Virus record (IMG/VR): IMGVR_UViG_3300042985_000001
Span: 1 to 32,733 of that record
Strand: one strand, 5' to 3'
Source of the DNA: a virus
DNA: 32,733 nt
Shown: one piece after another, positions 7,965 through 26,275 of the stretch
Numbering within the stretch: position 1 is the stretch's first letter
Layout: every line of letters starts with the position of its first letter
Translations under genes and position numbers: made by a program
The notes under the pieces: model-generated
Databases searched by the model: none
Told to the model about the DNA's origin: nothing
What the model saw: the letters and a program-made list of their open reading frames with translations, nothing else

Positions 7965-9120
7965 TTAATCCTTCAATCTTAATCTACTTAATTCATAAAG
8001 ACCGCTAACCCAGAGCGGCTCAAATCCTATTGTCTCATCATCAGTGCTGATTGTAAACTTTAACCTGTGAAACACATGACTTCCCCATGTAGAGCCAGCC
8101 ACACTACTGGCTGGCATTGTTGAATCATACCCTGACTTGGAAGGAGAAAGGGTAACTGTTTTCCCTGTCTGGTTCATATCACCATAATGTGTTACTGTAA
8201 CCGTACTGGAGGTTGTTCCTTTGGCCACCATGACCAACCTAATATATCTTATTACGCTCTCTATATTTATATCAGAAGAAACAGGTAAATCCCCAAGTTC
8301 AAACTCGTATGTTATAGACCCTCCATCTCCCGTAAACGCAGTTCCGTTTTCCAGTCTCTGTAGGTATCCAGAACCAGTTGCACCATAACTGTAATGTGCA
8401 CCGCTTGTGGTAGAAACATCAAGCCCGCATTGTAATCTATTACTACTGCCCCTGTCAATCTCAAACCACTTCTGTCTTCTTAGATCAAACACCAACTCCT
8501 TGTCAAGTGTAGTAGAAGACCCTGATGCAAATAACCAGTGGTACTCATATTCTCCGTTTGTGTTATCCCAGAACCCATAACTATCTGCCACCTTACTAAG
8601 GTTTATAGATTCCGATTTTGTCTGGTCAAAATAATTACTTATAGAAGCAGAGACTATATGTACAGACGAAGCATCATACATCATTATGCCGTTTGATGAT
8701 TGCCACATAACAATCTGTTGTGATTGTAAAGGGGCAAACTCCAGCCCGACAGGACTTGCTTTAAATGTATGCGGAGCAGAACACCCAACATTATTATCCA
8801 CCTGTGTAATAGTCCAGTCTTCTGGGGCTGTTCCAGTTAGCAGATACATAGCACCTGCCTTTGCTATTAACAGGTTACTTGTTACGCCTATATTAATATT
8901 AACAAATATCTCAGCAGCAGCAACTACCTCAGTGTCATCCCCAAAAACAAGTCCGTCTCCTGAATCTGAACCTGAAAAACTATTAAGGGTTCCAAGGGCA
9001 GAAACTATACAACTGTTTTTTCTATCAGCCTGGTCACCAAACAGGAAAGTTCTTCCCTGTGCATATAAAGGGAATGTATAATTCCAAGTGGTTTTGTACT
9101 GTATACCTGATAAGTGATAA
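7965..9120 (-). CDS. C-terminal part of large tail protein (tail tubular/stabilisation type)
   Basis: Open from about 9200 down to TAA at 7965; the ATG at 8849 is internal because the same frame reads FLFGDQADRK, GSDSGDGLVFGDDTEVV and NLLIAKAGAMYLLTGTAPED without interruption. The block LLTGTAPEDWTITQVDNNVG, then SPVGLEFAPLQSQQIVMWQS and GIMMYDASSVHIVSASISNYF, resembles beta-propeller tail proteins of podoviruses, which have a similar LxG...W pattern and a nearby SP.G motif. The remainder is beta-rich (DKELVFDLRRQKWFEIDRGS; strands around FELGDLPVSSDINIESVIRY). It ends ELSRLRLKD. It is the C-terminal third of a protein that begins at 11503 and forms part of the tail. Confidence 0.6.
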
Positions 9121-9784
9121 AGAGAACATCTCCATGAAACCTGACTCCATGATATTGTATAATAATATAGAGGGTCTCTTTGTTTTCTCTTTCTAAATCG
9201 TATTTCTCACGGATTCCATGTTATATATCCTGATTTGCAATGATATAAATCAGTAGATGTACCTCATTAACGTTCCACCGAATCCAGTCAGCCCATTCCA
9301 ATGGAAACAGTATAATGTACTTGCAGTAGTGTTAGTATGGTTGGTATTACTTACATGAAACCTTGTTCTTTCTCAAAATCCACATAATATATTCAGTAGA
9401 TGTAAACCATCATAATGCATAACTGATTCATCCCCACCATGAATCATCATATAATAAGTATTTTAAAAACATTTTTGTATTTCCTTATATATACCGTTTT
9501 CATATAACTGAAAAGAACCTGCCGATCTAAATTGACCGTCCCAAAAATCTCTTAACTTCTGGAATGGTTCAATCACTTTTACATTAGATAAGCAGTAGCC
9601 GCATCAGCATCTGTTATTTCTATTTTATACCAATACCCCAAAACACCATCTATAATTTTCTGCCTGGCAATATCTTCCGTTGAATCAAATGTAATGGTTC
9701 CTGATTGAGCCAGGGGAATACCACCAGAAGCTGTATTATCAGTAAGGTTGGTAACCGTTGTCCATTCATTAGTAGAACTCCAAT
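9121..9784 (-). CDS. Middle of large tail protein, heavily frame-broken
   Basis: No ORF above 60 codons starts here, yet natural protein sequence appears piecewise in all three minus frames: YWSSTNEWTTVTNLTDNTAS with QSGTITFDSTEDIARQKIID and GVLGYWYKIEI (about 9600-9790), then VKVIEPFQKLRDFWDGQFRS, then MIHGGDESVMHYDG, then RFHVSNTNHTNTTASTLYCF, then ITWNP and REKYDLEREN. The W..V..LTD...L.QSG.I.FD.T...K..I.G..GYWY pattern occurs in beta-rich phage tail proteins. I therefore read this as the coding bridge between the lectin-like insert and the C-terminal part, damaged by at least five indels. Confidence 0.5.
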
Positions 9785-10164
9785 AATAAACTACTTAATG
9801 ATCCTGTAGATGTATTGGCATTTGAAACGGTAAAGCTGATCCCAGATAAGGGCAAGATACCACCAACCCTTATATTAACATCAGCCGTTGATGTACCATA
9901 CGCACTAGCTGGAACATCAAAGTCTGTTGTAGAGAGTGCTGTATTAGTCAATCTTACTTCGTCTAAATATCCATTAAGAGGTTTGGTTGTACTTGTACCA
10001 TCATGTGCCGCCCCTACAAACACGGTTGAATCATAAGCTACTACAGATTCTGTTCTACTTGCAGTGGTTACACGTGCCTTTGATATACCCCCAACAAATA
10101 TATAATAATCATTTCCATTTTCAAGCACACGCACATGTGTCCACTGTTGTTGCAGATATAACAC
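9769..10164 (-). CDS. Segment of large tail protein: end of LamG/concanavalin-like domain
   Basis: A 131-codon open segment that continues 10121-11503 after a frame change near 10145. The core sequence WTHVRVLENGNDYYIFVGG, followed by a strand and then KPLNGYLDEVRLTNTALSTT, is the typical second half of a LamG (concanavalin A-like lectin/glucanase) domain. In that fold W.H....NG....Y..G is followed by G.IDE.R....AL. The end turns into an unnatural LLLEFY tail near 9785, where the next frame begins. The first nine residues are out of frame with the true protein. The lectin fold suggests glycan binding at the tail. Confidence 0.65.
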   Translation of the reverse strand: MLYLQQQWTHVRVLENGNDYYIFVGGISKARVTTASRTESVVAYDSTVFVGAAHDGTSTTKPLNGYLDEVRLTNTALSTTDFDVPASAYGTSTADVNIRVGGILPLSGISFTVSNANTSTGSLSSLLLEFY

Positions 10165-11503
10165 TATTAGGTGTGGATAAATCCACTATAGCATCAATTA
10201 CAGCACCACTCATATTTACATCCGTAGTTGCTATTGTTGTTGCTGAACTTGAAACTACATATCCATTAGTTGCTGCGCCCTTTGTAACGGCTGTAATTGT
10301 TATAACAGCACCATCCGCAGTTGCTGTGTAATTAGGAGATGATGTATTGGCAGTTATATTACTTGCCACGTTTGTAGCTGTAGTACTGAGGTCAGTATCA
10401 AAAGATTCAGCACCAGACATTATAGCCACACTATTCACGGTTATACCATCTACAGAACCAGCTCCACCTGAGTCAAGAGTGACTGTTCCTGTTGCAGCCG
10501 TTGTCTCTTTTATATCAAGATTAATAGCTCCGTTTGTATCTACATATGTACGTATATAATCTGAAGTGGCAGAACTTTTAGCCTGAGAATAAAGCCCGTG
10601 ATCTACGCTTAAATTGTTTAAATAAACCCATCCTTCCCATGTCCATATACCGCCTGATAGTACAAAGTCTGCATCATCTGGGGCCGTAACCCAATCGCCA
10701 GTTCCGTCCAGCTGAAGACTGGCAGTCCCAAACTTCTTTATAGCTGTATCAAGCTTTGCGTTACCCACCGCTGTCATTGTATGGGCCGTAGTAGGAGAAC
10801 TATCTGTTATTGTAGTAGATTCATCTGAACCATCACAATGTAATAACAGCTTAGTTTCACTACCTATACCAGATACACGTTTTAGCGTAGCTACATTAGT
10901 TGTGTCAGATTGCGTATTCTGTACCTGTACGGTATAATCATATAAAAATGTACCATTAGGGTCATATACTGTAAAGTTTGATACTCTTGCTTTATCACCG
11001 CCCCATACCATTGTCTCCGCACCATTACAATAAACAAGTCTCCCTAAGTAACAATTACAAAACCTGCCCTTACTTGCACCAGAAGCATCTGTGTGTAGTG
11101 CAGTTGCAGTAAAGTCACCAGTGCTGGGAATAGCTGTATCGTTCCTGTATACTTTAGATTGTGTTTCCCCGCTGTTATAAGCCTGTACCAATACGTGATT
11201 TTCAGCTGGTTGTGATTTTTCAAACTGGTGTACGTGTCTTATCTTTGGATGTGCAGACAGGGCAGTTGAGTTTATCTTGGTCATGCCCCTTATACCACGG
11301 ATACCATTATCAGTATAACGTATATTTTTTAATGTCTTATAGTTATCAATAACAGCCTTAGCATCTGTCTTACCACCTGTTGTTCCTGTCATTAAGCGCA
11401 CTGAATTAACAGATGATAGAAGCCTTCCTGTTAATCCAATTTCAACTGGCTTTAATTCCTTGTCTGTATTTTTTTTTGTTCCTTTTGATGTTGTCTTTGC
11501 CAT
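10121..11503 (-). CDS. N-terminal part of large tail protein with lectin-like insert
   Basis: A 460-codon segment with the true start, ATG at 11503 (MAKTTSKGTKKNTDKELKPV), just after the stop of the adaptor gene at 11506. Residues about 20-205 look like the N-terminal region of a podovirus tail tubular/stabilisation protein (GKTDAKAVIDNYKTLKNIRY, then GIRGIRGMTKINSTALSA). At about residue 215 a LamG-like domain begins (ETKLLLHCDGSDESTTITDS, FGTASLQLDGTGDWVTAPDD, then WTWEGWVYLNNL). It is followed by a Thr/Ala-rich block (about 330-440) that looks like an insertion inside the LamG fold. Joined with the next three segments the protein would be about 1,180 residues. Confidence 0.65.
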   Translation of the reverse strand: MAKTTSKGTKKNTDKELKPVEIGLTGRLLSSVNSVRLMTGTTGGKTDAKAVIDNYKTLKNIRYTDNGIRGIRGMTKINSTALSAHPKIRHVHQFEKSQPAENHVLVQAYNSGETQSKVYRNDTAIPSTGDFTATALHTDASGASKGRFCNCYLGRLVYCNGAETMVWGGDKARVSNFTVYDPNGTFLYDYTVQVQNTQSDTTNVATLKRVSGIGSETKLLLHCDGSDESTTITDSSPTTAHTMTAVGNAKLDTAIKKFGTASLQLDGTGDWVTAPDDADFVLSGGIWTWEGWVYLNNLSVDHGLYSQAKSSATSDYIRTYVDTNGAINLDIKETTAATGTVTLDSGGAGSVDGITVNSVAIMSGAESFDTDLSTTATNVASNITANTSSPNYTATADGAVITITAVTKGAATNGYVVSSSATTIATTDVNMSGAVIDAIVDLSTPNSVISATTVDTCACA

Positions 11504-11505
11504 TA

Positions 11506-12434
11506 TCAGTTCCTAGCTAACATATTAATCCTAACTTTACTCCTAACAAGTGCCTTATCAACACCATGCTTACCTCTCCTCATCTCCATCTCAGCCATCT
11601 GGTATAGTTTGTCAGCAAAACTAGGCTCTCTATCTTTATATTTAAATAACCATGCTGCATATTTAACAGTGGCTAAATCAAGATGCTGGGGATACCTGAA
11701 TGTCCCAAAATTAGAATATACAGGGGCTGGTTTCTGTACGTAATAGAATGTTATTGTGTGCCCTGCCGTACTTGGGGGAGGGTTTAGAACAATTCTAAAC
11801 CTTCCCTGTGGCTGTATGACGTAAGCATCGCTCGCATCCCAATCACTATCCGTAGTAGCACTAGGATCGTCTGGGAAGAGTGCAGTAACCAGTACGGTTG
11901 ATGATGTCTTGCTCACCACTACGCCAGAAGAACTATCGGTCGTATTGTGAACAATATCACCAGGGCTTACATCACTGAAATCAGCTGCACTATCTGTAAG
12001 AGTTGCCTCTCCGCTACTGGAACTCTTTGTGCCGCCAGATGTCTCTGTCCCTGAAACCTTGGAATCAAGAGTAGGGTCATCTGTAATACTAAAATTACTT
12101 GGAATAAGAACAGAGGTGGTATCATCATAAAGAATGATATCTTCGTATGACCCCCATCTTATAAAGTGATTACTTGTACCATCATTATACTTAATAAAGA
12201 AATCACCGCTCTTATCCTTCAGATATAAAGAAAGGAAGTCCGCATTAATAGTGTAACCAGTCTGGTCCGCAACTGTTGTTATTGACTGAGTAGCTGTTAA
12301 TGCATTGGTCTTTCTTGCTATCTCCAGTGCACCTTCATTTATATAATCATACATAGTCTTCTCATCAAGAAAACTCCATCCGTCTCTTCATCCAGGGCTA
12401 ACTGTACCCTGTACTTCATCTCTCTTCCATCCAT
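11506..12434 (-). CDS. Phage tail adaptor (head-tail connector) protein
   Basis: The open frame starting at ATG 12354 (MYDYINEGALEIARKTNALT) is extended upstream: ATG at 12434 reads MDGREMKYRVQLALDEETDG and, after a one-base deletion near 12377, WSFLDEKTMYDYINEG. Total length is about 309 residues. The order helix-rich N-terminus, beta-rich middle (DSKVSGTETSGGTKSSSSGE, a Ser/Thr-rich insert), then a strand with PPPSTAGHTITFYYVQKPAPV and the C-terminal helix pair (HLDLATVKYAAWLFKYKDRE, KLYQMAEMEMRRGKHG) matches phage adaptor proteins of podoviruses. It sits between the head genes and the tail protein, as expected. Confidence 0.65.
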
Positions 12435-24746: not shown

Positions 24747-26275
24747 CTAAAGTATTACCCACCTTGAACCATTAGAAACGGTAACCGTATAGGTATTTGC
24801 AACAGTAACGGGTCCTATAGTACTTCCGTTCTCTGTACCTGCAAAGGTTATATTTTCCGATATTGTCTTGCCATTTGTTCTAATCATAGAACTTGATCCC
24901 AAACTAGCACGGGCCTCAAGAGTAACATCTTCGTCAGGCATGGTAATTGTTCTTATCGTACTTGTTGATATACCAGAAGCCTCAAACGCTATCTTCTTAG
25001 TTGTATCAGTCTGATCTGTAATCCTGAATACATTATCAGCAGGAGTGTCACTACCTGCACCTGCTGGCCCTGTTGCTCCAGTTGCCCCTTTAGCACCAGT
25101 ACGTATAAATGATATATAAAGTGTGTCGGTATTTGATATTGTGCCGTTGGATGCAACATGGGTTACTGGTACTTGCAACCATCCTGTATTATCTACTACA
25201 GCTCCTGTAACACTATAACAGGCAAAAGTAGCAGGTGTACCAGATTTTCGTATCGTTATATAACCCTCATGTGTATCATTACTGCCATCATCTATACTTG
25301 CGATTAAATCAGATATATCAGGATTTCCAGTATCTGCTGAAGTTGCATCCATAGCCAGATTAGTAACTGAAGCTATAGTGGCATTATCAAATCTTATATC
25401 CCCTGCGCCTGGGTCGTTCATTGAAGTACTACTATCAAAGGTATACTTCCAAGCCAAAGCTCCTACTGCTGAAGTTGTATTTGTTTCAGATGTACTTGCA
25501 TTACTTGCAGATGTACTTGCAGCGCTTGCTAGACTGCATTACTTGCAGCACTTGCCGATGTACTTGCAGCACTTGCAGAAGTACTTGCAGCACTTGCAGA
25601 TGTACTTGCAGCACTTGCAGATGTAGATGCCGCAGAAGCAGATGTAGATGCATTTGTTTCCGCTGTTTCCGCATTAGTCTCTGCTGTTTCAGCTGCTGTC
25701 TTAGCTGTCTCTGCATTAGTTTCTGCTGTCTCTGCATTAGTTTCTGCTGTCTCAGCATTAGTCTCAGCCGTCTCTGCCGCAGTCTCAGAAGCTGCTGCTG
25801 CCGTTGCCGAAGTTGCTGCCGCAGTTGCCGAAGTTGCTGCCGCAGTTGCAGATGTAGCTGCAGCTGCTGCATCAACAATCAAATCCCACTTGGCACTATC
25901 AGTATTGGTATTAATGGGCTGGGAACCGCTTGATGTATGTGATGTATTACAATAATATATATTATTATTAGATGTGTCTTTAACGAGCTCTCTCGTTACG
26001 TAAGCAGTAGAAGCAGCCCAATTACCTTTATAATCCCCTATTAAAGCATTTCCCTTCAGTATCCATCTTTTATTACCTGCATTGGTATCAGGAGATATAA
26101 CACCAGGGGAACTTTCACTTGCACCAGAACTATCATCCAGTGTGTAAAAATATGCCTTATTGCCTGTTACCACCATAGCCGCATCTAAATCTGACAGGTC
26201 CATTCCATCTATCTTATCAAGTGCACCAGTACCACCACCTGTCAAAGCAACTGCTGGATAAAATTTATTAGCCAT
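24747..26275 (-). CDS. Tail fibre with heptad repeats (frame-broken)
   Basis: Start ATG 26275 (MANKFYPAVALTGGGTGALD) after GGAGATATAG. An N-terminal globular part (about residues 1-135) includes TGGGTGALDKIDGMDLSDLD and YYCNTSHTSSGSQPINTNTD. It is followed by long 7-residue repeats: AAATSAT, then AETAETN and then STSASAA, typical of a trimeric fibre shaft. The segment ends NAV at a frame change near 25529, and the other frame continues TSAVGALAWKYTFDSSTSM to a collagen-like GATGATGPAGAGS and the C-terminus SNGSRWVIL. About 510 residues. The product is most likely a tail fibre shaft protein. Confidence 0.65.
25530..25860 (-). repeat. Heptad-coding direct repeats in the fibre shaft gene
   Basis: Within the fibre gene, 21-nt units (such as the plus-strand GATGTACTTGCAGCACTTGCA) recur with small changes between about 25540 and 25630, and related 21-nt units coding AETAETN and AAATSAT follow to about 25860. 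Each encodes a heptad. Near-identical units could vary in number by slippage. Confidence 0.7.

Follow-up and report, generated by a model that had tools for sequence, protein, structure and literature searches.

A predicted SU10-like tail nozzle protein with an optional LamG domain nested in its propeller framework

Introduction

The tip domains of phage tail nozzles are regarded as cell sensors that open the tail, and few of their ligands are known. In the SU10 nozzle gp17 (7z47, 7z4b), which is built on a platform and a propeller, the available part of the published description places the entry of the tip domains between propeller blades 2 and 3, and it mentions four Ig-like nozzle domains and no LamG domain (PMC9509320). 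The same part states that the SU10 and T7 nozzles show no sequence similarity to each other, while the T7 nozzle, according to the accessible text on that system, also holds its tip domains in an insertion of the propeller (PMC6702177). For the crAss001 muzzle gp44 (7qol, 7qok), the portion of the source at hand reports two similar inserted beta-sandwich domains, with further insertions nested in the second one and a length that varies between relatives; IG1 enters the chain between blades 2 and 3, and contact with the cell is the role that its authors propose for the tip (PMC10172136). Our literature search, in which most subscription journals fell outside the scope, found no paper joining a phage nozzle with LamG, or laminin G with a podovirus tail; one crassvirus review mentions both a nozzle protein and lectin in the setting of phage tails.

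Here, we describe a gene from a 32,733-nucleotide viral stretch (IMG/VR record IMGVR_UViG_3300042985_000001; hereafter the window). Judging by structure prediction, it appears to encode a variant of the tail nozzle (stabilisation) protein of an SU10-like short-tailed phage from an environmental sample. The tail part itself is known; what appears to be new is a lectin-shaped domain in the tail-tip protein where some related phages have none.

Results and Discussion

One gene with an interrupted frame

Three-frame translation and comparison with relatives showed that 11503..7965 on the minus strand is a single gene, the whole nozzle gene, whose frame is interrupted in this contig by dense indels and open in relatives. 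Using six relatives as tblastn queries, three pieces were found head to tail on that strand in three frames, at 11503-10145, 10143-9793 and 9791-7968, with frame shifts near 10144 and 9792; L010 as query split the last piece further, and with the truncated L007 the alignment began at 10071. Identity of L004 to the three pieces was about 84%, 90% and 70%, respectively. The open frame was uninterrupted in all 14 close relatives: each of the eight complete copies (L002-L006, L008-L010; about 1190 aa) is a single frame, as is each of the six copies cut by contig ends alone (L007, L011, L014, L016, L018, L019). The sequence-only reading had also proposed one protein, and the two or three genes with their own starts that it named as the contrary outcome were not found, since the 14 frames run through. 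In the window, the pieces do lie in three frames with several stops between them, and a more distant relative, L027, is read in two overlapping frames, as would be expected if a framework, a lectin and a tail protein were separate genes that merely appear joined. However, the near relatives of L027 (L025 and L029) are unsplit, the breaks consist of dense single gaps, other genes of the contig are broken likewise, and every close relative reads through all parts in one frame, so that we reject this explanation as extremely improbable.

The breaks themselves are best taken as a sequence, consensus or assembly error, because comparison with relatives reveals split genes elsewhere in the contig too (5170-2064, 13242-12446, 12443-11509 and 16338-15603). 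A decaying gene or programmed frameshifts would account for breaks that are present in the record as given, but this is improbable: more than 30 non-triplet gaps fall within about 500 bases, adjoining a switch of the closest relative between 9551 and 8951, and the broken genes across the contig look like the outcome of consensus or assembly error. For the six of the 14 close relatives taken into the comparison, the non-triplet alignment gaps of the gene that lie within 9000-9499 numbered 38 of 45 (L004), 37 of 44 (L008), 37 of 43 (L009), 36 of 39 (L010), 35 of 37 (L007) and 32 of 43 (L002).

Some close relatives show a mosaic pattern. As far as the module nested in LamG (see below), L005 matches L002 at about 100% identity, and beyond it L004; around the same site, the closest match of L008 changes from L004 to L009. 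In the window, 10450-9851 resembles L008/L009 (99-100%) and 8800-7901 resembles L002/L003 (98-100%). Recombination in a conserved stretch or mixing during assembly may have produced this pattern, and a single sample yielded both L005 and L008; mosaicism was therefore given no weight in our conclusions.

A nozzle framework formed by both ends of the chain

As the window copy is broken, the fold was predicted on the intact relative L004, with 23 homologues (alignment A5) supplied to AlphaFold. The model reached a mean pLDDT of 81.5 and a pTM of 0.73, and structure alignment (VIA-align) matched it to tail chains in over ten phage entries with Z of 21-28: Pa223 (27.9), VP1 (26.5), SU10 (26.4 over 462 residues), Pan3 (26.1), the crAss001 muzzle (25.8), P22 gp10 (24.9) and Pam1 (24.4), all over 412-462 residues at 10-13% identity, and the LME-1 tail chain M (9efk; 22.5). 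Entry titles mostly name tail complexes, so that apart from the crAss001 muzzle and P22 gp10 the matched chain was taken to be the nozzle. Unrelated propellers gave Z of about 19-21 over about 280 residues. The nozzle alignments run from L004 residue 16-18 to 1184-1190; both ends of the model are thus aligned even though many of the matched chains have half its length, from which it follows that the aligned part is made of the chain ends and that some 600 residues in the middle are extra. The short nozzles of P22 (gp10), Pa223 and Pam1 fit this arrangement, with 412-460 of their 442-512 residues aligned to the framework (460 of 512 for Pa223) and without the roughly 600 inserted residues.

Foldseek ranked the tails of cyanophage A4 (E 1.8e-14) and SU10 (E 3.4e-14) at the top, with low whole-chain TM-scores (0.30-0.32 by query length, rmsd about 30), which would be expected if the tip domains differ in kind and angle and which are no proof of the whole fold. 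On the basis of alignment, model and fold match, we assign 10871..11503 (minus strand; L004 aa 1-205) to the N-terminal framework, with the first platform strands and the first propeller blades, and 7965..9110 (minus strand, stop codon at 7965) to the C-terminal framework, with the remaining blades and the platform. The predicted framework fold agrees with the earlier proposal that the N- and C-terminal parts form one tail framework of the stabilisation or nozzle kind. The strand list of the model suggests that two blades precede the insertion and the remainder follow it, as in SU10 and crAss001.

The gene neighbourhood points the same way as the nozzle class, in which the gene adjoins an adaptor gene. 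Directly upstream on the minus strand, at 11506..12354, lies an SU10-type adaptor, or head-tail connector (PF24175, 43.4 bits, cut-off 27), a type also found in the SU10 genome; this adaptor gene ends 2 bases upstream of the nozzle start at 11503 and begins earlier in relatives, extending to about 12443 (in another frame in the window). Farther upstream, Pfam identified a capsid gene above cut-off and an SU10-portal match of 28.9 bits, just under the cut-off of 30.

At the sequence level, similarity to a solved nozzle was looked for with L004 and with a 23-row profile, and none was found. L004 alone gave no framework match to solved structures at E 1, and the profile retrieved LamG-type chains (an S-layer-domain protein, neurexins and AbnA domain 4) together with two histone chimeras at E 0.03; the SU10 nozzle was likewise absent from the matches in the profile search of the PDB. 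Such similarity is not taken as defining, because it is also lacking between SU10 and T7. One observation against a nozzle is that the C-terminal piece weakly matches a PHROG annotated as internal virion protein (E 1.7e-4). The C-terminal parts of L012 or L013 matched nothing in known phage genomes at E 0.1. Searched whole against the same genomes, L004 matched 17 records, all within residues 196-615, a range that takes in LamG, its nested module and, in some cases, possibly the nozzle domain R1. Among bacterial and archaeal genomes, one of 23 pattern stretches proved to be a relative (L080).

A LamG domain that is optional in the family

Between the two framework parts lie three predicted tip domains, as in SU10 gp17, where tip domains are also inserted in the propeller; the exact blade rests on the strand list. 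First in the chain is a LamG, or concanavalin A-like, domain at 9886..10870 (minus strand), in which the frame changes near 10144 and, just past the domain end, near 9792. The window piece 10164-9772 matches PF13385 (Laminin_G_3) at 31.4 bits, above the cut-off of 27.6. Residues 214-530 of the L004 model align with AbnA domain 4 (5hon), an arabinan-binding module of the same fold, with Z 20.7 over 191 of 206 residues at 20% identity, and the profile match to that domain has E 2e-5. A LamG domain nested inside a tail framework, as the sequence-only reading had it, is therefore borne out by both the Pfam and the fold match, the latter on a predicted model of a relative. Searched alone against solved structures, the LamG domain of L013 returned nothing at E 0.1. 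Clostridial binding-domain folds were also among the structure matches; they belong to the same jelly-roll class and carry no implication of toxicity.

In the family, 18 of the 23 rows of A5 have LamG, four join the flanking parts directly and one has another module. Scanned whole, 11 of the 18 passed the PF13385 cut-off (L012, L013, L025, L048, L049, L056, L070, L072, L074, L075 and L080), as did L023, which lies outside A5. Another four (L002, L004, L009 and L010) matched Laminin_G_2 alone, under its cut-off, as the nested module splits the domain there, and the remaining three (L039, L043 and L044) had no Pfam LamG match, their assignment depending on alignment and on our own profile. This profile was built from ten members, L043 included, and it matches L043 as well as L039 and L044, which were not used to build it. 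L073 gave none in Pfam and 112 bits with our profile. The Pfam scan returned no LamG match for L021, L024, L030, L031, L032, L069, L071 and L078. L024, L069, L071 and L078 show the direct join, in which '...NTLxDxxNxATL' passes into '...VGxxxPLxGFxFYV'; in L021, another module sits slightly upstream of the LamG site, and the three most distant members (L030-L032) are without LamG by Pfam and by our profile.

We then placed the presence of LamG on a framework tree of 37 rows, obtained by a short search with the LamG columns excluded and SH-aLRT as sole support, in which L073 and L027 (whose LamG sits in its other frame) were scored as having LamG. The trait needs six changes on this tree, at least three of them forced by strongly supported branches, and clustering of the label is weak (as low in 59 and 46 of 500 shuffles). 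The tree gives no direction of gain or loss.

A module nested within LamG

A Thr/Ala-rich module of about 100 aa lies inside LamG at 10196..10504 (minus strand; L004 residues 332-434), identified by alignment and module searches; the insertion noticed earlier at this place is thus real. It is the weakest part of the L004 model, with blocks at 43-60 pLDDT. Six of the 18 LamG rows of A5 carry it inside LamG, and L039 and L044 have a second copy, 37-50% identical, within the nozzle domain R2. Of 183 stretches that match the pattern, 86 contain relatives of the module, and the 80 best of these were retained as 79 loci. Among the 72 loci new in the module scan, some of whose contigs had been seen before, 16 had a framework match in the same frame and 56 had none, one of the latter with a 15-bit trace; in many cases the frame is truncated where the 3-kb flank ends.

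Matches to Pfam were sought for eight module carriers and matches to PHROGs for seven. One carrier, L091, is a muzzle of the crAss type (crAss_MUZ in Pfam at 59 bits, cut-off 27) with the same nested module as the window nozzle; L115 and L140 match the virion structural family PHROG 3287, L123 matches another such family, PHROG 3758, and L101 has a weak match to an amidase family. L115 and L132 also match PHROG 165 (tail sheath), over the module alone, so that they are not shown to be sheaths and a sheath-like label for module carriers was rejected. Among named phage records, the module occurs in Tenacibaculum phage Gundel_1 alone, where two records have it and the annotation reads sheath or structural protein. 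The outcome is a nested arrangement, with a module in LamG in a predicted propeller, and the module is common to non-nozzle proteins and to a crAss-type muzzle.

Duplicated nozzle domains R1 and R2

The nozzle domain R1 (WTTVTNLTD...GYWY) follows LamG at 9580..9885 (minus strand), with the frame change near 9792 inside it. A linker (which may belong to a propeller blade) and the nozzle domain R2 occupy 9111..9579 (minus strand), an indel-packed stretch in which boundaries are approximate. R1 and R2 are homologous domains of about 105 aa (hhalign probability 99.5%, E 4e-23, 23% identity), and both were matched in each of the 70 frames that hold the two framework ends, a count that takes in repeated cuts of one contig. 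The WTTVTNLTD...GYWY domain noticed earlier is therefore present, though in two copies rather than one, and it belongs to the regular middle of the family, with or without LamG.

Modelled separately, R1-linker-R2 reached pLDDT 91.6. R2 matches residues 488-637 of the 817-residue LME-1 tail chain with Z 17.1; lower matches were to baseplate proteins of contractile-injection systems (Z 9-10) and to discoidin/CBM32-like domains (about Z 8, where values of 7-8 are often reached by chance arrangements). By sequence profile, R1-R2 alone retrieved one solved entry, at E 0.048. The crAss001 tip has the crass fold and not LamG, and we liken R1/R2 to IG1/IG2 by placement alone.

Position at the tail tip and possible functions

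One gene, an optional nested LamG and duplicated nozzle domains are established by these comparisons. The account that best explains them, and which we consider probable, is that of an SU10-like nozzle with a propeller framework and with LamG, R1 and R2 at a distal tip touching the cell. According to it, the N- and C-terminal parts would co-fold into the platform and beta-propeller, attach to the adaptor ring and seal the channel for the DNA, and the middle of the chain would leave the propeller to form the distal tip domains, namely LamG with its inserted module followed by the R1 and R2 beta-sandwiches. Six copies, joined as a hexamer that gates the DNA below the adaptor, would place six LamG domains at the outer tail tip, around the channel exit, where they would most likely touch the cell surface as the tail docks and help to set off nozzle opening or to stabilise it.

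We favour a tip domain because LamG occupies the site of the distal tip domains in the SU10, T7 and crAss001 nozzles; by analogy with SU10 and crAss001, it should face the cell at the tail tip and not form a lobe on the tube wall. The sequence-only reading had seen a module built into the tail tube and raised a side lobe on a propeller as a point to check; the structure prediction places LamG within the tip-domain insertion instead, and a side lobe is not supported. Overall, that reading stood as to one protein, its framework, the nested LamG and the insertion within it, and was not supported as to the placement on the tube and the single GYWY domain.

Glycan binding by LamG is putative, being suggested by the fold. 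The Trp-rich concave cleft of AbnA domain 4 held arabinopentaose, as the accessible part of the source reports (PMC9110388). AbnA has 9 Trp in the aligned stretch; in the family profile, 2 of them are retained, one is replaced by Tyr and six by other residues, and a ligand could also bind to other faces. Identity among close relatives is 0.83-0.98 in LamG and 0.75-0.88 in the N-terminal part; conservation of LamG is about equal to that of the rest of the protein beyond the N-terminal framework, and dN is below dS. Diversifying selection on LamG was not seen in these comparisons, which covered 10 pairs among seven of the 14 close relatives, excluded pairs identical through mosaicism and may still be disturbed by it. 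Both the conservation and the low dN argue against rapid receptor switching, that is, against a fast-changing receptor binder.

These results also bear on a different role, in which LamG and its module would be passive spacers or stabilisers of the tail tip, for example in contact with short fibres or the neighbouring subunit, and would have no glycan ligand. Conservation with dN below dS is compatible with it, as are the members that keep the remaining protein without LamG, the lack of conservation of most AbnA Trp residues and the presence of the module in proteins without the nozzle framework (the 56 loci above). Nevertheless, the site would lie at the distal tip, by analogy with known nozzles, and it is empty in some members, with another module nearby in one, as would sooner be expected of a surface that changes than of a strut that is required; we therefore regard passive spacers as possible, but the less likely role.

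Extending the account of a cell-contacting tip, one may picture the nozzle as a phage adhesin, with a conserved propeller and an exchangeable tip site at which lectin-fold and other mobile modules are gained, lost and nested. A first or second glycan contact would then be made by the DNA gate and not by the fibres, coupling binding to opening. We put this forward as speculation that is rather unlikely to hold; if true, it would tie binding directly to the opening of the tail. Elsewhere in the window, weak matches point to possible separate fibre-like genes near 24750-26275, which would count against a nozzle tip that contacts the cell. As one framework exists in versions that have a lectin-fold tip, another module or a direct join, the family provides natural comparisons on the function of the tip.

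Modules, Domains and Possible Mosaicism in the Nozzle Protein Family

R2, the second of the two homologous domains that follow the LamG domain of the nozzle protein, is similar, in its predicted model (mb0daad8d0823, residues 116-281), to baseplate domains from contractile injection systems, with Z scores of 9-10. As to R1, the first of these domains, the nozzle family member at L023 (2062-7116), which reaches 1685 residues, gives two partial matches to it, separated by approximately 600 additional residues (487 to 1087). The Thr/Ala-rich nested module is also found at residues 614-713 of a crAss-type muzzle protein (L091, 1162-5412). Moreover, other inserted modules are located in the N-terminal framework of the nozzle genes of L071 and L021, and in LamG of that of L012.

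Around LamG and the nested module, in the window (10600-7900) and in L005, L006 and L008, the closest relative switches sharply and synonymous divergence is low, and the switches may reflect either a recombination hot spot or assembly mixing.

At possible earlier starts in L024 and L075, and also in L048, a signal-peptide-like hydrophobic stretch precedes the usual nozzle start; such a stretch is atypical of nozzles, and may result from a start-site mistake. In addition, the contig carrying the L080 nozzle homologue was binned as a Syntrophales bacterium, and could possibly be a phage or prophage of this group.

Other Genes of the Window

Compared to their relatives, genes at window positions 18624-16676, 16338-15603, 13242-12446, 12443-11509 and 5170-2064 are split into frames, and the portal likewise appears to be in two pieces, as judged from PHROG matches. 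These splits may affect other results on the window. Between the nozzle gene and the downstream genes lies a GNAT-type acetyltransferase gene (7584-7198; PF00583, 25.0 bits, cut-off 20.7). Lastly, the genes at 26275-25529 and 25457-24747 are candidate fibre genes, based on a weak CBM_5_12 match (19.3 bits, below the cut-off of 26.2) together with a match to a tail-fibre family C-terminus.
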